A stretch of 64,000 nucleotides of DNA from Pelagibaculum spongiae (GCF_003097315.1 NZ_QDDL01000001.1:1178001-1242000), one strand, 5' to 3'. Numbered from the stretch's first letter, positions 662 to 64,000 are shown. The notes: a model not told the origin generated them from the sequence alone. Made by a program: numbers and translations.

Positions 662-2191
662 GTGAACATCCGATGCTTAAATTTTTACAGTAAATTGCTA
701 TCTATTGCATTAGTTACAATATTGATATTTACACCTGCTATCTACAGTACTTCAGCAATAGCCCAACCGGCATTACAGCTCAAAGCGGCCAGTTACAAAC
801 AATTATTATCCAGCCAAAAAGCACTAGAAGCGAAGCAATACGCTAAAGCAGAGCAGTTGTTATTAACACTTATTAAAAACACTCAATCATTAAAGTATGA
901 CCAGCTAATTGGCTGGAGAAATCTTGCTGCAGTCTATCTTGATCAAGCCGCAAGTACTGGCACTGCTTCTGAAGAAAACACTCAAGAAAACACTCAAGAA
1001 AACACTCAAGAAAACACCGACCAACTTTACAATAAAGCCATTCCAGCGCTAGAAAAAGCATTAGAACTAGCGCTTGGTTTAAAACAGCAAGCGAGCATTG
1101 AGCAACAACAGCTTCGCTTGAATTTAGGACAACTATTATTACAGCAACAACACTATGCAAAGAGCGCTCAATTATTTGAAGACTATCTTTCTATCGAAGA
1201 AATAAAGTTATCCAAACCGCAAATAAGTAATACTGAAACTGAGAACAAAGTCGCCAAAACAAGTCATCCAGCCGCGCGAATTTACCTATTACTAGCTCAA
1301 GCCGAGTATCAGCAACAACACTGGCACAAGGTATTATCCCCCATCAGCAAAGCAATAGCAGCAGCAACAGAGCAGCAACTGCCTGCGCAAAAAAACTGGT
1401 ATCAAATTAAATTAGCAGCGTTTTATCAGTTAAAACAGCCATCAGAAATGAAGCCTCTATTGCAGCAAATGCTCAAACTTTGGCCAAATGAACGCCAGTA
1501 TTGGATGCAACTATACCAAGTTGAATTGCAACAGTCAGAGTTTAGCGGGCTACAAGCTGATGCCTTAGCTGTTTTAAAGTCTGCATGGCTGCAAGGCGTC
1601 TTCGATAGAGAGTCTGATTACCTGCAATTGGCACAATTATTGGCTTATAACAACAATACCTACCAAGCTGGCCAACTACTTGAACAATCAATCCAACAAG
1701 GGTTGGTTACAGAAACCGATAAAAACTATCAATCCCTAGCTAACTATTGGTTGGTGGCAAAAGATAATGATAAAGCCTTGTTAGCATTGAAGCTGCAATT
1801 TCAGATAACACCAAAAGCAAAGTTAGCACTCACAATTAGTCAGCTGATGTTTGCGCAACAGCAATATTCGCAGCTAATCGATTTTTCCAGCAATTATTTG
1901 AAGAGCGCTTCACTAAATAGCACTTTATTGAATAGCAGCTCAGATTCATCTCTATCTAAAACAGAATCAACAACTGATTCTGATGCTCAAATCATCTCAA
2001 AAATACAACTACTTGCAGCTCAATCTTATTGGCAGCTATCACAAGTTAGCGTTCTCTCAGAGAACAAGAAAAACCAGTTAATAAAAAATTCGATACATCT
2101 ATTGAAAATAATTGAAGAGAATCTAGCGACCAAACAAACTGCAAAAAATTGGTTAAAACACATCATAAAAATTACCAACACAAAATCGTAA
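662..2191 (+). CDS. Exported TPR-like repeat protein downstream of tonB
   Basis: A 509-residue protein with a signal peptide (hydrophobic residues about 10-34, likely cleavage after Ala-Ile-Ala). The rest is helical, rich in Gln, Ala and Leu, with spacing of small and bulky residues like degenerate tetratricopeptide repeats. The start is a GTG five bases after the tonB stop, the only start that keeps the complete signal peptide. The position fits the TPR partner (TtpC-like) of TonB2 systems, but I cannot show orthology. A perfect 12-bp tandem repeat (971-1018) encodes Glu-Asn-Thr-Gln units near residues 104-119 and looks like a slippage-prone loop. The 3' quarter of this gene was copied into the spacer at 4927-5178 by the duplication that doubled the next gene. 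Confidence 0.75.
   Translation: MNIRCLNFYSKLLSIALVTILIFTPAIYSTSAIAQPALQLKAASYKQLLSSQKALEAKQYAKAEQLLLTLIKNTQSLKYDQLIGWRNLAAVYLDQAASTGTASEENTQENTQENTQENTDQLYNKAIPALEKALELALGLKQQASIEQQQLRLNLGQLLLQQQHYAKSAQLFEDYLSIEEIKLSKPQISNTETENKVAKTSHPAARIYLLLAQAEYQQQHWHKVLSPISKAIAAATEQQLPAQKNWYQIKLAAFYQLKQPSEMKPLLQQMLKLWPNERQYWMQLYQVELQQSEFSGLQADALAVLKSAWLQGVFDRESDYLQLAQLLAYNNNTYQAGQLLEQSIQQGLVTETDKNYQSLANYWLVAKDNDKALLALKLQFQITPKAKLALTISQLMFAQQQYSQLIDFSSNYLKSASLNSTLLNSSSDSSLSKTESTTDSDAQIISKIQLLAAQSYWQLSQVSVLSENKKNQLIKNSIHLLKIIEENLATKQTAKNWLKHIIKITNTKS
971..1018 (+). repeat. 12-bp tandem repeat, four units, inside the TPR gene
   Basis: Four consecutive 12-bp units of the type GAAGAAAACACT/CAAGAAAACACT. The unit is a multiple of three, so copy-number change would add or remove four residues without shifting the frame. 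It lies in a hydrophilic linker. Confidence 0.9.
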
Positions 2192-4778: not shown

Positions 4779-4926
4779 TTTTGCAAAAGCGCTAGATGTC
4801 GATGTAAATCGTCTAACTGCAGCAATGGCAACCACGACCTATTGATAAAACAAATATTATGAATGCTCTGTTTCCTAGGGGCATCTAACCTTTTCTTGCA
4901 AGGTTTGATAAGTCTTCGGCGCAGTG

Positions 4927-5178
4927 CAGATTCGTCTCTACTTAAAATAGAATAGATAGTTGATTCTGATGTTCACATCATCTCAAAAATCTAATTGATC
5001 ATAACTCAAGCCTCTTGGCAGTTATCGAAAGATGATATTCAGTCAGGTAAAAGACAAAGCCAGTTAATAAAAAATCGATACTTCCATTACGAATAGTTGA
5101 AGATAATCCAACAATTAAACAAGCCATAGAAAACTAATTAAAATAAATCATAAAAAATTACCAACACAAATTTATAAT
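4927..5178 (+). pseudogene. Relic of the 3' end of the upstream TPR gene
   Basis: This stretch aligns base for base with about 1941-2191 of the intact TPR gene, including shared blocks such as TTGATTCTGATG, ATCATCTCAAAAAT, CAGTTAATAAAAAAT and AAAATTACCAACACAAA. It carries in-frame stops and small indels and has no start, so it cannot code. It is the left part of duplication unit B and shows that the duplication breakpoint lay inside the TPR gene. The spacer before it (4779-4926) shows no similarity I can see to unit A and no gene. Confidence 0.85.
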
Positions 5179-5477
5179 CAACAACTCGTGATTTGCGCAC
5201 CATAATTTTGATTAAAACCAATTAAAAAAACATTGATTAGCTAGACAAACCGCTTTTAACCTTCCACTTACTAGTGTTATTTTTCCTTTTATCATTTTTG
5301 TCAAACAATACAGTTTAACAGCTTTCCCTGCAAACTATTGACCTACAACAAAGATAATAAAAAACCTTTAGACATCATCACTGAATGTCAGGTACAGCCT
5401 CTTATTATTTAACTACACTTTCCGCTAGATTGACCTACATCAAGTTCGGTTGACGTTGTTGTTCGGGGAGTACGCTA

Positions 5478-57605: not shown

Positions 57606-57932
57606 TTAATTACTCCAAAGCACAATATATTTTTTTAAGATATTTTCTCTAAACTGCTCTGGTATTCTTTGCCACGCTAGAACTTGAACAATAATCGGAA
57701 TATTGGAATCACTTAACGCTTCAGTAAAATCCGTTAAGGCACTGTTATTCAATACGTCACTCTTTGGGCTATTAGCATCAGGTAAATGCACCACTAAATC
57801 TAAGTCACTGGTATTATGAGAAGTACCCTTCACTCGACTGCCATAAACCCATATTTGACTGCCTGTGGGCAGCGCTTCATTAGCTAACCTGCAAATTGCC
57901 TGGCGGTCCATATCTCGTAAATCCAACGCCAT
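57606..57932 (-). CDS. MNT-type nucleotidyltransferase (antitoxin-like partner of HEPN)
   Basis: 108 residues. The minimal nucleotidyltransferase motif G-S-x3-G-T-x4-S-D-x-D is complete in YGSRVKGTSHNTSDLDL (Ser32 to Asp45). In HEPN-MNT toxin-antitoxin pairs the MNT protein silences the HEPN ribonuclease, in studied cases by AMP transfer. Its start overlaps the HEPN stop by one base (TAATG). Confidence 0.88.
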   Translation of the reverse strand: MALDLRDMDRQAICRLANEALPTGSQIWVYGSRVKGTSHNTSDLDLVVHLPDANSPKSDVLNNSALTDFTEALSDSNIPIIVQVLAWQRIPEQFRENILKKYIVLWSN

Positions 57933-58348
57933 TATTCAGATACTCGCTGTTGATCAACTGCGACAGCTAAAGCACGTGCATCAATAATAAAGTCGGCTAG
58001 TAGCTCTAAAGTGGTTTCTGCGAACTTTTTACCGCTATCACTTTCAAAACCATGCGCCGTATTATTGCGATTATCTTGATAAAGCAACCATCGCTCCGCT
58101 TGCTCTAATGTCAGAAAATCATGATGTGCTGCATAACGAAAAACTTCCTTGGATACCAATCGATCGACTGCCTTTGGACTGTGCATATAATCTTTCAAAC
58201 ACTTAGGCAGCAATTTACCCGACTGCTCAAGAATAATCTCAAACTCTTTCACACAGGCCGAGCGGTACATTTCATATTCAATGCTTTCAGTAGTAGCACC
58301 TTGCAACATACCATACGCTTTATCTAGCGTATCAATGCAACGATTCAA
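57932..58348 (-). CDS. HEPN-domain protein (nucleotidyltransferase substrate-binding/toxin type)
   Basis: 138 residues, all-helical, HI0074-like. The HEPN ribonuclease motif R-x4-H is present as RNNTAH at residues 94-99, so it could cut RNA. HI0074-type proteins are described both as NTase partners and as toxins. Paired with the MNT gene by overlap. It borders the RAYT cluster. Confidence 0.82.
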   Translation of the reverse strand: MNRCIDTLDKAYGMLQGATTESIEYEMYRSACVKEFEIILEQSGKLLPKCLKDYMHSPKAVDRLVSKEVFRYAAHHDFLTLEQAERWLLYQDNRNNTAHGFESDSGKKFAETTLELLADFIIDARALAVAVDQQRVSE

Positions 58349-58466
58349 AAAATGGGTATCAATAGCCAGAGCGACTCACAAGTGACAACAAACCTAACCA
58401 ATGGGCTCAATTGTAACTGCTTATAGCAAAGAGTTCACTGCGCTCAAATATGACCGGAATGTTTGC

Positions 58467-59588
58467 CTATGGATTCTTAAACAATCGATCTGAACCCGAA
58501 CCGCCCACCCAAAATTGTTTCAACTGAACCGCATGCTTTCTTAGCGATGCCAAACAACCTACTGCCCGGTGGAACTTATTACCGCCTTGGCCCATGGTTT
58601 GAATCCAAACGGCTTGGTCAATATTCAACCGTTCAATAATCGACGGCAAAGAAGCATCCATTGCAGCTTTTCCTGAACGAATAATTCGTGCAGTTTGATC
58701 AACTAGTATTAAATAATCTTGATAAGAGAAAGGAATATTTTCTTGCAGCGGGTCTTTGCTTTTAAATGGCTTTAATTTAGGTTTAATAGCTAAATTAGCT
58801 TTGGAAGTTTCACTTGATATTACTTCAATATCGGCATCAGTCGGTTTTTTCCCAACCTTAGTATTGCGAAGAATTCGTTGTTGGATTGAAGTATAATCTG
58901 ACTGCTCTGGCGTTTTCGCTATACCTGCGCGCAGCGGGTTTAAATCAACATAAGCCATACAAGTTAAAATGGCTTGTTCGTCTAACAAAGCCTGGGCTTT
59001 AAAGCGCCCTTCCCAAAAATGCCCTGTGCATTTATCTTCTTTATTCGCCATTCTGGCTAATGGTTCATTCAGGCTGCGCATAAACCAACTTAAATCGACC
59101 AACCGCTGGCGATATTCATCAACAAAACTTTCAACATATTGCAATTCTAACGGCATTAAATTGTCACCATCTAAATAGCGGCGAACCATTTCAGGGCCTT
59201 GGTACACCTTGCACCAACGGCGCAAAACCTCATCACTACTCCAGCTGTTAGCTTTTTCTAAATTAACGCACAGCACTAAATGGTAATGGTTACTCATTAC
59301 GGCATAACTAGCAATTTCAATAGAAAAGGCATCTGCCAGTAGTGCCAAACGCTTAACAATCCAGTCTCGGCGGTGCTCAAAGCTTTCACCGGTATCTGGG
59401 TCAACACCGCACAGCCACGCCTTGCGACATACCCTACTCACGCAGTGGAACCAATGGCAAAACTGAGGATTCATTCCCACCCGACGCGGCCCAACCTTGG
59501 CAATCTCAACCGTGTCGGTATAACGACGGCCAAAATCAAACGGGCTATCAGAAAGAGGTTGAACAGAATTAAAATGGTGACCTGTCAT
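58467..59588 (-). CDS. REP-associated tyrosine transposase (Y1, IS200-like), copy 1
   Basis: 373 residues, longer than the 165-residue E. coli RAYT. The Y1 transposase metal-binding His pair is in MSNHYHLVL (His101, His103), the family helix with the candidate nucleophile is in CMAYVDLNPLRAG (Tyr213), and GHFWEGRFKAQAL lies before it. It nicks and joins single-stranded DNA at hairpins; RAYTs are usually domesticated and tied to REP repeats, which here flank it. Nearly identical to the copy at 60111. Confidence 0.9.
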   Translation of the reverse strand: MTGHHFNSVQPLSDSPFDFGRRYTDTVEIAKVGPRRVGMNPQFCHWFHCVSRVCRKAWLCGVDPDTGESFEHRRDWIVKRLALLADAFSIEIASYAVMSNHYHLVLCVNLEKANSWSSDEVLRRWCKVYQGPEMVRRYLDGDNLMPLELQYVESFVDEYRQRLVDLSWFMRSLNEPLARMANKEDKCTGHFWEGRFKAQALLDEQAILTCMAYVDLNPLRAGIAKTPEQSDYTSIQQRILRNTKVGKKPTDADIEVISSETSKANLAIKPKLKPFKSKDPLQENIPFSYQDYLILVDQTARIIRSGKAAMDASLPSIIERLNIDQAVWIQTMGQGGNKFHRAVGCLASLRKHAVQLKQFWVGGSGSDRLFKNP

Positions 59589-59597
59589 AGCACCGCA

Positions 59598-59622
59598 TAC
59601 CTACGCTATTGAAGTTTAGGTA
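59598..59622. repeat. Subterminal hairpin upstream of the RAYT start
   Basis: TACCTA-CGCTATTGAAGTT-TAGGTA, 9 bases upstream of the RAYT start codon. The same hairpin, with one base lost at its outer edge in some, recurs at 59976-59998, 61242-61266 and about 61494-61516, always between a RAYT 5' end and the CCCCGCTG hairpin. Contains GTAG, the tetranucleotide often found at REP guide positions, but that role here is a guess. Confidence 0.8.
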
Positions 59623-59635
59623 GCATATAAAACAA

Positions 59636-59711
59636 AAACCCCGCTGTGAAATTAAAAGAATTAATTCGCAGTGGGGTTTCATCAATCAATTTATGCCTGG
59701 CAGGTTTTGTT
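59636..59711 (+). repeat. REP-like unit: hairpin plus TTATGCCTGGCA
   Basis: AAACCCCGCTG...CAGTGGGGTTT (59636-59679) with an AT-rich upper stem, then ATCAATCAATT and the motif TTATGCCTGGCAGGTTTTG. Confidence 0.92.
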
Positions 59712-59715
59712 TTGA

Positions 59716-59965
59716 GTAGTGCCAAACGCTTAACAATCCAATCTCGGCGGTGCTCAAAGCTTTCACCGGTATCTGGGTCAACACCACACAGCCACGCCTT
59801 GCGACATACCCTACTCATGCAGTGGAACCAATGGCAAAACTGAGGATTCATTCCCACCCGACGTGGCCCAACCTTGGCAATTTCAACCGTATCGGTATAG
59901 CGACGGCCAAAATCAAAGGTCTGATCAGAATGAGGTTTAGCAGAATTAAAATGGTGACCTGTCAT
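59716..59965 (-). pseudogene. Truncated RAYT gene, first 83 codons only
   Basis: Codons 1 to about 84 of the RAYT are kept with a few changes, ending after KRLALL. The reading frame then runs into the neighbouring REP-like unit. The His-x-His motif and the nucleophile are missing, so it is not a transposase. The junction joins the motif end GGCAGGTTTTG directly to RAYT sequence corresponding to 59338 in copy 1. Confidence 0.92.
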
Positions 59966-60010
59966 AGCACTGCAAACCTACGCTATTGAAGTTTAGGTAG
60001 CATATAAAAC

Positions 60011-60087
60011 AAAAACCCCGCTGTGAAATTAAAATAATTAATTCGCAGCAGGGCTTTATAAATCAATTTATGCCTGGCAGGTTTTGT
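60011..60087 (+). repeat. REP-like unit: hairpin plus TTATGCCTGGCA
   Basis: Hairpin AACCCCGCTG...CAGCAGGGCTT, then TATAAATCAATT and the motif at 60068-60079. Copy 2 of the full RAYT element starts 13 bases further on. Confidence 0.92.
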
Positions 60088-60110
60088 TGAAATATGACCG
60101 GAATGTTTGC

Positions 60111-61232
60111 CTATGGATTCTTAAACAATCGATCTGAACCCGAACCGCCCACCCAAAATTGTTTCAACTGAACCGCATGCTTTCTTAGCGATGCCAAACA
60201 TCCTACTGCCCGGTGGAACTTATTACCGCCTTGGCCCATGGTTTGGATCCAAACGGTTTGGTCAATATTCAACCGTTCAATAATCGGCGGTAAAGTATTA
60301 TCCATTGCAGCCTTTCCTGAACGAATAATTCGTGCAGTTTGATCAACTAGTATTAAATAATCTTGATAAGAGAAAGGAATATTTTCTTGCAGCGGGTCTT
60401 TGCTTTTAAATGGCTTTAATTTAGGTTTAATAGCTAAGTTAGCTTTGGAAGTTTCATTTGATATTACTTCAATATCGGCATCAGCTGGTTTTTTCCCAAC
60501 CTTAGTATTGCGAAGAATTCGTTGTTGGATTGAAGTATAATCTGACTGCTCTGGCGTTTTCGCCATACCTGCGCGCAGCGGGTTTAAATCAACATAAGCC
60601 ATACAAGTTAAAATGGCTTGTTCGTCTAACAAAGCCTGGGCTTTAAAGCGCCCTTCCCAAAAATGCCCAGTGCATTTATCTTCTTTATTCGCCATTCTTG
60701 CTAGTGGTTCATTCAGGCTGCGCATAAACCAACTTAAATCGACCAACCGCTGGCGATATTCATCAACAAAACTTTCAACATATTGCAATTCTAACGGCAT
60801 TAAATTGTCACCCTCTAAATAGCGGCGAACCATTTCAGGGCCTTGGTACACCTTGCACCAACGGCGCAAAACCTCATCACTACTCCAGCTGTTAGCTTTT
60901 TCTAAATTAACGCACAGCACTAAATGGTAATGGTTACTCATTACGGCATAACTGGCAATTTCAATAGAAAAAGCATCTGCCAGCAATGCCAAACGCTTAA
61001 CAATCCAGTCTCGGCGGTGCTCAAAGCTTTCACCGGTATCTGGGTCAACACCGCACAGCCACGCCTTGCGACATACCCTACTCACGCAGTGGAACCAATG
61101 GCAAAACTGAGGATTCATTCCAACACGACGTGGCCCAACCTTGGCAATTTCAACCGTGTCGGTATAACGACGGCCAAAATCAAACGGGCTATCAGAAAGA
61201 GGTTGAACAGAATTAAAATGGTGACCTGTCAT
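60111..61232 (-). CDS. REP-associated tyrosine transposase (Y1, IS200-like), copy 2
   Basis: 373 residues, differing from copy 1 at only about eight positions (for example Asp140 to Glu, Ile to Met before AKTPEQ, Thr to Ala near 246, Ser to Asn near 254). All catalytic motifs are intact (HYH at 101-103, CMAYVDLNP). Two apparently functional copies in 2.8 kb imply a recent duplication, unusual for RAYTs, which are normally single-copy. Confidence 0.9.
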   Translation of the reverse strand: MTGHHFNSVQPLSDSPFDFGRRYTDTVEIAKVGPRRVGMNPQFCHWFHCVSRVCRKAWLCGVDPDTGESFEHRRDWIVKRLALLADAFSIEIASYAVMSNHYHLVLCVNLEKANSWSSDEVLRRWCKVYQGPEMVRRYLEGDNLMPLELQYVESFVDEYRQRLVDLSWFMRSLNEPLARMANKEDKCTGHFWEGRFKAQALLDEQAILTCMAYVDLNPLRAGMAKTPEQSDYTSIQQRILRNTKVGKKPADADIEVISNETSKANLAIKPKLKPFKSKDPLQENIPFSYQDYLILVDQTARIIRSGKAAMDNTLPPIIERLNIDQTVWIQTMGQGGNKFHRAVGCLASLRKHAVQLKQFWVGGSGSDRLFKNP

Positions 61233-61277
61233 AGCACTGCATACCTACGCTATTGAAGTTTAGGTAGCATATAAAAC

Positions 61278-61353
61278 AAAAAACCCGCTGTGAAATTAAA
61301 AGAATTAATTCGCAGCGGGGCTTTATAAATCAATTTATGCCTGGCAGGTTTTG
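61278..61353 (+). repeat. REP-like unit: hairpin plus TTATGCCTGGCA
   Basis: Hairpin AACCCGCTG...CAGCGGGGCTT, TATAAATCAATT linker, motif at 61335-61346. Confidence 0.92.
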
Positions 61354-61405
61354 TTTATTCGCAGCGGAGCTTTATAAATCAATTTATGCCTGGCAGGTTT
61401 TGTTT
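61354..61405 (+). repeat. Partial REP-like unit
   Basis: Only the right arm of the hairpin (TTCGCAGCGGAGCTT) and the TATAAATCAATT-motif part (61384-61395) remain, as a tandem copy directly abutting the previous unit. Confidence 0.9.
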
Positions 61406-61406
61406 T

Positions 61407-61481
61407 CTCGGTATAACGACGACCAAAATCAAAGGTCTGATCAGAATGAGGTTTAGCAGAATTAAAATGGTGACCTGTCAT
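61407..61481 (-). pseudogene. Truncated RAYT gene, first 25 codons only
   Basis: Encodes MTGHHFNSAKPHSDQTFDFG and a few more residues, then joins the motif end GGCAGGTTTTGTTTT directly. Its sequence (SAKPHSDQTF) matches the 84-codon fragment at 59716, not the full copies, so these two fragments share an ancestor. Confidence 0.92.
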
Positions 61482-61526
61482 AGCACTGCAAACCTACGCT
61501 ATTGAAGTTTAGGTAGCATATAAAAC

Positions 61527-61603
61527 AAAAACCCTGCTGTGAAATTAAAATAATTAATTCGCAGCAGGGCTTTATAAATCAATTTATGCCTGGCAGGTTT
61601 TAA
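61527..61603 (+). repeat. REP-like unit: hairpin plus TTATGCCTGGCA
   Basis: Hairpin AACCCTGCTG...CAGCAGGGCTT with a compensated base pair relative to the CCCCGCTG form, TATAAATCAATT, motif at 61584-61595. Confidence 0.92.
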
Positions 61604-61618
61604 TCATGCATATAAAAG

Positions 61619-61695
61619 AAAAACCCCGCTGTGAAATTAAAAGAATTAATTCGCAGCGGGGTTTCATCAATTAATTTATGCCTGGCAGGTTTTGT
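61619..61695 (+). repeat. REP-like unit: hairpin plus TTATGCCTGGCA
   Basis: Perfect hairpin AAACCCCGCTG...CAGCGGGGTTT, ATCAATTAATT linker, motif at 61676-61687. No RAYT sequence next to it. Confidence 0.93.
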
Positions 61696-61746
61696 GTTGT
61701 TAAAACATCATCAACCAGATCAATTAACCATTCTAAGAATCAAATA

Positions 61747-61794
61747 ATTTATGGCTGGCAGATATTGTTTATTTATGGCTGGCAGATATTGTTT
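61747..61794 (+). repeat. Two degenerate motif copies after the pilin gene
   Basis: TTATGGCTGGCAGATATTG twice in tandem (61749, 61773), just beyond the 3' end of pilA, with no hairpin of their own. Confidence 0.85.
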
Positions 61795-61798
61795 TTGC

Positions 61799-62284
61799 TT
61801 ACAAAGTTTTCGGCGCTAGTTTTAAACTAACATAACCACTTGTTCCAAGCTTTGTAGCATCAACTGAAAAAGATATGCCACCAGCTGTACCGATAGTAGC
61901 TAAAACATCTAATTTCAAGCCAGCTAAATCTGATGGTACACCGTTGGCTGCTGTATCGAAAGTGGTTGTAATGACTGCATTAGCGTCTCCAGCAGTATAA
62001 CCATAAGCAACAGATGCTATTTTTCCCAGTTTATTGTCTGTAGCTGTTGCACTAATACCATATTTTACTAGGTCCGCAGGCAACGGTAACTTAGCAAAAG
62101 TTGAGGCGTATTCAGCGACCGCCAACTGTGCAGGTCTAATAGCGTTCAAAGCTTGAGTATTAACTGTCGCTCTCTGTGTATAGGTCTTATATTGCGGCAC
62201 AGCCACTGCCGCCAAAATACCGATAATCGCAATAACGATCATTAATTCAATCAGGGTAAAACCCTTAGAGATAGATGCTTTCAT
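61799..62284 (-). CDS. pilA: Type IV major pilin
   Basis: 161 residues. Class III signal MKASISKG followed by [24 protein letters not shown]: cleavage after Gly8, N-methyl-Phe9, and Glu at mature position 5. The rest is an Ala/Thr/Val-rich head domain without a cysteine pair, so the usual pilin disulfide loop is absent. Ribosome-binding site CTGGAG 9 bases before the ATG. Subunit of a pilus for twitching, attachment or DNA uptake. A second pilin gene lies downstream in the same direction as read from the window end. Confidence 0.93.
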
Positions 62285-63390
62285 ATTGTTATTCTCCAGT
62301 TTTTATTTTTGGTTTTTTTACGCTTTTATTATTGTTGTTAGCCAATAACATTGGCGTGGTTTAACTGCTTAATTCAGCACAAGGCTGAATTAAATGATAT
62401 TTTGCTTTGCCGATTGCACATTCCAATAACCGCAAAGCAAACGATCAAATTAGTACCTGTTCTCGCTTGTAAAGTTGCATGCTGTTTGAGTGATTGTTGG
62501 TGGCTTTTGCGGTGATTTTTGTTACGACCTTTGTTATAAGGTCGGCAAAAACACCCTTCCAAACCACTGGTCAGCAAAATCATACAACCCACCACCGAAC
62601 AAACTTGATTTAATACCATTCAACTTGTGTGCCAGCTATTCAACAATAAACAGAAACCGAATACAAGCAGATTTTAACCACTTGTCAAACATGAAGTTAA
62701 CTCAGGTTGTTAAAGTGGCCGGGTTAGCGGGCTGGAGGTGACTAAATGCCGCTTTGTGACCATAAATGTCATTTATGGGTGACAAAGTTTGTCACATGAC
62801 AGTTTTTGGTGGGGTTGGGGTAAAAGTTCGAGGGGTTTATTGTTTGGTTTCTACAGGTTTGGTACTCGCGGCTTTTACCATCCATGGCACTGGGTCCCCG
62901 CCAATCCCTGGCGGGAATGACCGCACCCAGTAGCAAGCACCGAGCACTCTGCTTGGTGCATAACAAGTTAGCTTGGAGGTGTTGCTAAATGTACGTGCTT
63001 GCAAGTTGGTTCGTACATCGCAACTACGGAGTTAATTGTTGGGATTGCAGCACTTATGAAGTTAATTGCTGGGTGCGGTCATCCCGAGCAGGAAGTGCAT
63101 GGATGTACGGATTAGGGCGACGCAGGCAGCAAATGTTCCAGACATTTGCTCTGCATTTCCCCCATCCATAGAGGTCATGCCAAAGCCGTGATGCCGGGGC
63201 AGAAAATTGCGTCCCTGCATTTTCTGCATTTCTCACATCCTTGTGAGTCACCCAGTTGCCATGGACGGTAATGGTTAAAGCAAGTGCGGTGTTTGAAGGT
63301 AAAAAAACGGACTCGCAGATTGGTTCGTACCATTGCAACTGTGAAGTTAATTGTTTGGCAACAAGTGCAGAGCTTTGATCACCAAATACA
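62285..63390. other. Repeat-rich spacer between two pilin genes
   Basis: No supportable gene in 1.1 kb. It holds a dyad CCAATGTTATTGG upstream of pilA (near 62342) and a palindrome near 62895-62925 (CCCCGCC...GGCGGG) inside a GC-rich block. It also has two imperfect direct repeats of TTGGTTCGTAC...GCAACT...GAAGTTAATTG (about 63005-63040 and 63316-63353), with a further GAAGTTAATTG at 63058. Confidence 0.6.
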
Positions 63391-63488
63391 ACAAAGCCCA
63401 ACAGGCAGAACCTATTGGGCTTTGAGAACCATCAATCTAGCTGATCAAACCAAAACAGAATCAATCAATTTATGGCTGGCAGGTTTTG
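63391..63488 (+). repeat. Hairpin plus motif unit of a second type, copy 1
   Basis: AAAGCCCAA (63393) and TTGGGCTTT (63415) form the hairpin; a 40-base spacer leads to TCAATCAATT and TTATGGCTGGCAGGTTTTG (63470). Same motif as the RAYT units but an unrelated hairpin. Confidence 0.88.
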
Positions 63489-63523
63489 ACTATGCAACCT
63501 ACGGAGAAACTCTTAAACAGCAG

Positions 63524-63680
63524 ATACAACAAAGCCCAACAGGCAGAACCTATTGGGCTTTGAGAACCATCAATCTTGCTGATCAAACCAAGACAGAATC
63601 AATCAGATTATGCCTGGCAGGTTTTGATCCCGTGGCAGGTTTTAGTCCCGGCAGGTTTTAGTCCCGCAGGTTTAGATCCA
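63524..63680 (+). repeat. Second-type unit, copy 2, with decaying GGCAGGTTTT tandem tail
   Basis: A near-exact copy of the first unit (hairpin 63531-63561, motif at 63608-63619), then GGCAGGTTTTGATCCCG, GGCAGGTTTTAGTCCCG, GCAGGTTTTAGTCCCG, CAGGTTTAGATC, CAGGTTTA: a 16-17 bp tandem repeat that shortens stepwise to the pilin stop. Confidence 0.88.
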
Positions 63681-63683
63681 GGT

Positions 63684-64000
63684 TTAGCCTTTACCAAACT
63701 TAGGCGTAATCTCTGCAGGAAGAGTTCCAGAAAGAGAGTTTGGCGAACCAAATGCAACTTTTCCGTTAGAAGATGAAACTTTCAAAATTATAGTTTTAGC
63801 TGACAACGCTGCTGGCACAGAGTCATTTGCAGAAGTATTCGCAAATGTAATTGTTGCCAATATAGATTTAGCCAATGGATCTGCGTTTGCACCAGTAGTA
63901 GGGTCACCACCTTCAGCGAATTCGATTTTTTCAACAATACCTAGCGCATAGTCCGCCGCTGCAGCATATCCGCCATATTGAGATAAATCAGCCAGTGCAT
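63684..64000 (-). CDS. Second type IV pilin-like gene, 5' end outside the window
   Basis: At least 105 C-terminal codons. The visible part (ALADLSQYGGYAAAADYALG ... SVPAALSAKTIILKVSSSNG ... LPAEITPKFGKG) has the composition and layout of a pilin head domain. Its C-terminus (gradual Ala/Ser/Lys-rich strands ending TPKFGKG) resembles that of pilA. The N-terminal helix that would prove it lies beyond base 64000, so the call rests on similarity to the neighbour and position. Confidence 0.65.
   Translation of the reverse strand, partial: ALADLSQYGGYAAAADYALGIVEKIEFAEGGDPTTGANADPLAKSILATITFANTSANDSVPAALSAKTIILKVSSSNGKVAFGSPNSLSGTLPAEITPKFGKG

Follow-up and report, generated by a model that had tools for sequence, protein, structure and literature searches.

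Stacked tail copies with a fixed outer edge at the ends of a Y1/HUH transposase element in Pelagibaculum spongiae and other marine bacteria

Related transposase genes in many marine bacteria are surrounded by the same pattern, in which copies of an element end share a fixed outer edge and begin at random inner edges. The arrangement of these sequences suggests that the ends grow, somewhat probably in our judgement, by an enzyme nick, extension of the 3'-OH and resealing, which would duplicate the tail while keeping its outer edge fixed. It is not yet settled in the field by what means RAYT-class enzymes disseminate REPs or their own genes, and these arrays preserve the products of many such reactions as they occurred in nature. 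If the enzyme nicks its own ends and these grow outward, the process would be a little-known route by which bacteria duplicate DNA and pick up neighbouring sequence.

Eight units in series in the P. spongiae window

The window is the whole 64,000-nucleotide stretch of P. spongiae DNA that was analysed (G000:C1:1178001-1242000), which lies on a 1.39-Mb contig. Positions 58446-61793 consist of eight units in series with one common right edge; the right edges all agree, and the left starts all differ and are non-homologous. Two units are full transposase copies and the other six are pieces of 24 to 377 nt. The units and the features of their ends are as follows:

58446..59711, minus strand: unit 1, full transposase copy 1 with its upstream (right) end; gene at 58467-59588(-)
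59712..60088, minus strand: unit 2, 377 nt, first 83 codons with the upstream end; left joint within the gene
60089..61355, minus strand: unit 3, full transposase copy 2 with ~20 nt common with the left flank of unit 1; gene at 60111-61232(-)
61356..61404, minus strand: unit 4, 49 nt, left start within the hairpin, common right edge
61405..61604, minus strand: unit 5, 200 nt, first 25 codons with the upstream end
61605..61696, minus strand: unit 6, 92 nt, left start upstream of the hairpin, common right edge
61697..61769, minus strand: unit 7, 73 nt, non-transposase sequence (pilin-downstream type), ends ATGGCTGGCAGATATTGTT
61770..61793, minus strand: unit 8, 24 nt, copy of the unit 7 tail
59693..59701, minus strand: terminal repeat core GCCAGGCAT (sense) of unit 1; predicted nick 10 nt further out, at 59711/59712
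61337..61345, minus strand: terminal repeat core GCCAGGCAT of unit 3; predicted nick at 61355/61356
59636..59679, no strand assigned: subterminal, terminator-like hairpin CCCCGCTGTG...CGCAGTGGGG, lying between the right edge and the start of the gene; role putative

On the plus strand, a unit ends with ATGCCTGGC followed by ~10 nt that run to the edge as ...AGGTTTTGTT, and the last two units end with ATGGCTGGCAGATATTGTT. In the window, ten bases (AACAAAACCT) lie outside GCCAGGCAT, which agrees with the outer stretch of stacked copies described below. The left joints lie ~20 nt past the presumed left end of a full copy, in the gene after codon 83 and after codon 25, immediately upstream of the hairpin, within the hairpin, and in non-transposase sequence. 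The joints read G/TT, and most carry 1-5 nt of unexplained filler (TTG, TTC). Integron attC-like cassettes were considered for these joints and rejected, because GTTRRRY is not needed at them and because every unit is the tail of a single element, with its copies spread over 1.2 Mb.

The original prediction described a nested series of four elements, with two near-identical full genes at 58467 and 60111 and two fragments at 59716 and 61407. All four are present: the full genes are intact 373-aa ORFs whose proteins are 98% identical, and both fragments retain the start of the gene, the hairpin and the end TTTATGCCTGGCAGGTTTTG. However, the units follow one another and are not nested, and four further units had been missed (61356-61404, 61605-61696, 61697-61769 and 61770-61793). 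The internal breakpoints had also been described as joined directly to the motif end; they do meet the same end, through TT and 1-3 extra bases rather than directly at ...TTTTG.

In the window, 14 copies of the end motif were counted compared with 0.28 expected, and none of 100 shuffles reached this count; genome-wide, it occurs 35 times compared with 0 for the reversed control, and the units that carry it are spread across 1.2 Mb. When other loci were checked for copies, the array arrangement was found again at C1:263-264.5k, 467-471.5k, 55k and 1026k. Pairwise differences among the window units range from 2 to 13%. Units 2 and 5 are 97% alike mutually versus 92-93% to copy 1, and in part of their sequence they have variants of the L031 type, not the copy 1 type. 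The L031 units have their own common end, ...AGATATTTTT.

Two explanations of the array that were named at the outset as possible refutations can be addressed here. Homologous recombination alone is rejected, because it cannot produce the differing inner joints. Assembly error is unlikely given that the units differ by 2-13% and that two single-contig genomes have the same structure; as an account of the whole pattern, an assembly artefact is very improbable, since the repeats do lie near one another in this interval but the window is on a contig of the length given above and the structure recurs in the single-contig genomes G040-G042 and many named assemblies.

Within 800 nt downstream of the window copies we found no downstream terminal repeat, and only the upstream repeat is present. 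Because their left ends are without this repeat, the window copies may be one-ended derivatives.

Other features adjoin the series. At 63384-63690 lies a second array that is without transposase sequence: a duplicated hairpin (AACAAAGCCCAACAGGCAGAACCTATTGGGCTTTG) bears the same end motif, and GGCAGGTTTTAGTCCC units of decreasing length come after it. Type IV pilin-like genes adjoin arrays at 61799-62284(-) in the window and at 685-1200(-) and 4826-5293(-) in L036, and the same end motif is found downstream of pilin-like genes (window 61697-61769; L036 2412-2651); capture or shuffling of pilin 3' regions is conceivable. Directly left of copy 1, 57606-57932(-) and 57932-58348(-) encode a nucleotidyltransferase and its substrate-binding partner, an MntA / HI0074-like pair.

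The transposase and the ends of its family

The transposase encoded in the window is a Y1/HUH enzyme and belongs to TnpAY1 subclass 2.3. Its HuH motif is H101-Y-H103 (NHYH) and its catalytic Y213 lies in YVDLNP, at a spacing of 110 residues; H101, H103 and Y213 are invariant across the 32 proteins compared, all of which contain YVDLNP. The NCBIfam model REP_Tyr_transpos matches weakly (41 bits versus a cut-off of 80). A sequence search of the PDB gave no match, whereas a search with the predicted fold did, with the TnpA-REP structure 4er8 as the best solved match (Z 12.4, 157 residues, rmsd 2.9), followed by the IS608 and ISDra2 transposases. The C-terminal part of the 373-aa protein is modelled with moderate confidence, and relatives are mostly 320-380 aa long. 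The P. spongiae genome has 49 matches, which indicates that the window copies are one part of a large family; 12 and 15 matches were counted in two other genomes (G036 and G015, respectively). The original prediction took such genes to be usually single-copy, which does not hold for subclass 2.3, a normally multi-copy group (PMC6006769, Table 1).

Quentin et al. (2018) described subclass 2.3 as a gene without flanking REP-like structures or typical IS features, encoding a long protein (median 325 aa) with a C-terminal domain (PMC6006769). The window protein resembles this subclass in its NHYH, W-E and YVDLNP motifs, its HuH-Y spacing of 110, its C-terminal extension, and its occurrence in several diverged copies per genome in gammaproteobacteria. 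Unlike that description (PMC6006769), the genes here lie in units of 1.28 kb that have a terminal inverted repeat and tails stacked at their ends.

The ends were examined in the flanks of 74 named related loci from Shewanella, Endozoicomonas, Marinomonas, Colwellia, Marinobacter, Microbulbifer, Zooshikella and others. A core that reads into the element as G[AC]CA[CTG][CG]CA[CT] (consensus GMCABSCAY) was found upstream 80 times in proper orientation versus 2 in the opposite one, and downstream 114 times versus 6, whereas 345 kb of far flanks held 41 of each; because the core was derived from ~10 of the 74 loci, the enrichment that these contribute is to some extent built in, and the orientation contrast across the remaining loci is not. 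Nine of 10 checked elements with both cores measure 1277-1293 nt (~1.28 kb). Between loci of one genome, similarity ends at the same two edges (L085/L088, L096/L106 and L087/L092/L093). We conclude that the subclass 2.3 gene sits in a two-ended, TIR-bounded mobile element, which supplies the subclass with its missing ends. The motif that had been called REP-like is one terminal inverted repeat core that an entire transposase subclass has in common, rather than a REP; some relatives have GGGGACA. Family loci have no strong flank consensus, and no empty site was found among the fetched loci and within the G041 genus. In five downstream flanks from different Shewanella loci (L085, L089, L092, L096 and L106), ~100 nt of related non-transposase sequence is present, which could be captured DNA or a preferred site.

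At the family level, a Y1 transposase between inverted repeats is also the layout of the TIRYT elements, or TIRtrons, described by the Di Nocera group in 2013 (PMC3733652). Unlike these, the window core GCCAGGCAT lacks GGGGWSAS, the family core being GMCABSCAY, and dimers and clusters are described for TIRYT but fixed-edge tail duplication is not (PMC3733652). The same stacking is found outside subclass 2.3, at L259 and L260, which have a TIRYT-type core (GGGGTCAG, equal to GGGGWSAS) and stacked units such as AAACTTCC and AAACTTCGGGGTCC, or GATC, GATCAAAG and GATCAAAGGGGTCA; simple two-unit stacks were seen by eye at L263, L264 and L270, also outside the subclass.

Outer and inner edges of stacked copies

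We compared neighbours among 86 consecutive stacked cores from the 74 loci, with the pairs unselected; this test supersedes an earlier outer/inner test that was biased by pre-selecting pairs on outward length. Outward identity from the core peaks at 9-11 nt, with 33 of the 86 pairs in the best 3-nt bin versus 15 for inward identity, which ends anywhere from 0 to 254 nt. Permutations that swapped outward and inward were as sharp as the observed data in 1 of 20000 cases, and in 4 of 20000 when each element end contributed a single pair. The outer edge covers 9-11 nt with a tail to 15 and is not a single position, and about one third of consecutive core pairs have no common outer stretch. Fixed outer and variable inner edges were seen in at least 10 genera, which supports the proposal of repeated one-ended joining at the motif. 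The outer 9-10 nt are common within a stack and different between loci, which indicates that the local edge is the template for the duplicate.

By the density of local repeats, subclass 2.3 could not be told apart from canonical RAYTs (Mann-Whitney p 0.25). It fails as a control because BIMEs repeat too, and canonical RAYTs likewise have local repeats of the BIME kind. The specific measure is the fixed edge, not local-repeat density.

The original prediction regarded the shorter units as deletion derivatives. Instead, each consists of a duplicated outer edge with read-through of any length, which sometimes passes beyond the element into the flank. At L032, a 664-nt unit comprises ~566 nt of other DNA and 97 nt of element end, and this other DNA recurs at C3:237443-237959 (85%); a 443-nt unit at the same locus is 97% identical to the right part of the adjacent 664-nt unit, including ~340 nt of non-element DNA. 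Window copy 2 similarly carries along ~20 nt of the left flank of copy 1. The shortest units are ~7 nt, below the length of the outer stretch (TTTTTTC tracts, L206). Among closed genomes, G040 has a tandem copy of 1209 nt that is 99.8% identical, and G041 has a unit that starts inside the gene.

Short tandem units are frequent at these ends, and slippage is known to expand such tracts, which would be consistent with replication slippage and unequal recombination at repeat-rich ends without involvement of the enzyme. However, that process would not explain why the outer edge is fixed at 9-11 nt from the core and the inner edges are free, or why there are kilobase units with unrelated inner joints and no long homology, and we consider it improbable. 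One fixed and one ragged end would also resemble the product of LINE-like, target-primed reverse transcription with 5' truncation. We give this reading almost no credence, since the outer edge is fixed at both element ends, on opposite strands, which one RNA cannot give, and the element's sole encoded enzyme is an HUH transposase rather than a reverse transcriptase.

A proposed nick-extend-reseal route and its relation to known systems

From the anatomy of the element, we infer the nick, the nicked strand, the priming and the rejoining that the favoured route would involve. The enzyme would nick the strand that reads GCCAGGCAT (family GMCABSCAY) inward, ~9-10 nt 5' of the core, and would stay on the 5' end of the element, leaving a 3'-OH on the flank. 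This 3'-OH would extend inward, copying the other strand and displacing the enzyme-bound 5' flap, over a few nt to >1 kb and sometimes beyond the element into the DNA next to it. The 3' end formed in this way would then attack the phosphotyrosine and be sealed to the flap. Each round would add a tail copy whose outer edge is fixed and whose inner edge is random, and repeated rounds could build the window array. A nick on the other strand was rejected because it would be expected to duplicate the flank outward, which is not seen.

The chemistry has a counterpart in E. coli TnpA-REP, which forms a 5'-phosphotyrosine that a foreign 3'-OH can attack, and for which priming from a 3'-OH has been suggested (PMC8266576). 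That 2021 study reported no evidence of tnpAREP mobility and proposed that 3'-OH priming and strand transfer might both serve (PMC8266576). The window element is like the RAYT REPtrons in fold, with 4er8 as its best match, and in the proposed chemistry and priming; unlike in the REPtrons, the gene itself is multiplied here. GTAG-footed REP hairpins flank the REPtron gene and are dispersed in its genome; none is evident at the edge here, with GTAG ~15 nt away from the foot of the hairpin at 59636-59679. IS200/IS605 transposases (IS608, ISDra2) share the Y1 HUH fold, but their ends are subterminal hairpins where these are inverted repeats, and the Y motif here is YVDLNP rather than Y---Q. IS200/IS605 elements excise as single-stranded circles and insert 3' of a fixed tetranucleotide.

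The main competing reading is one-ended transposition in trans, in the style of Helitrons and IS91, in which one element end would give rise to a single strand, precise and enzyme-bound at its 5' end but random at its 3' end, and this strand would enter another end where that is nicked. IS91 has a fixed 5' end and a variable 3' end and captures flanking DNA by read-through. Helraiser has the same polarity and likewise captures flanks by read-through (PMC4778049), and the trans reading would also fit the dispersal of the families across loci and the L031 variants, rather than those of copy 1, in units 2 and 5. In contrast, stacked copies have locus-specific outer bases in common and read-through units hold the flank of their direct neighbour, both of which favour local templating; overall, we regard trans insertion as an unlikely source of the arrays. 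The proteins differ as well, being RepHel or IS91-type HUH enzymes there and of the Y1 IS200/RAYT type here, and most events here are duplications made locally, at the edge of the element itself. Nevertheless, trans events or gene conversion must also act, because of the filler, the unshared outer bases and the resemblance of units 2 and 5 to L031.

More broadly, TIR-bounded Y1/HUH elements of subclasses 2.1 and 2.3 may run nick-extend-reseal cycles in living cells without prior excision, a generalization that we hold to be evenly balanced. If true, self-templated DNA growth at an element edge would yield tracts that resemble minisatellites, tandem transposase copies both truncated and full, and duplicates of the host DNA next to the element. 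The arrays also offer an account of how tandem clusters arise around such genes and how flanking DNA comes to be captured there. Because they predict the cut strand, the cut position (9-10 nt 5' of the 9-nt core) and the sealing partners, the mechanism is directly testable with oligonucleotides. In the open literature on TIRYT and on one-ended transposition or tandem amplification by TnpA-REP, we found no description of fixed-edge tail duplication.

Further observations concern the P. spongiae genome as a whole. By local GC skew, 27 of 34 transposase genes are on the G-rich (leading) strand (Fisher p 0.0037), which is suggestive of lagging-strand use, although this count still includes the general orientation bias of genes. 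A ~110-nt repeat (the first 5-119 nt of L032:5203) occurs in ~25 places over many contigs at 88-96% identity. At L032 6968-7627(+) (G000:C1:470467-471126), a gene for a 219-aa protein with a weak, below-cut-off match to Peptidase_C58 (20.8 bits) sits in a 900-nt stretch flanked by two end motifs.
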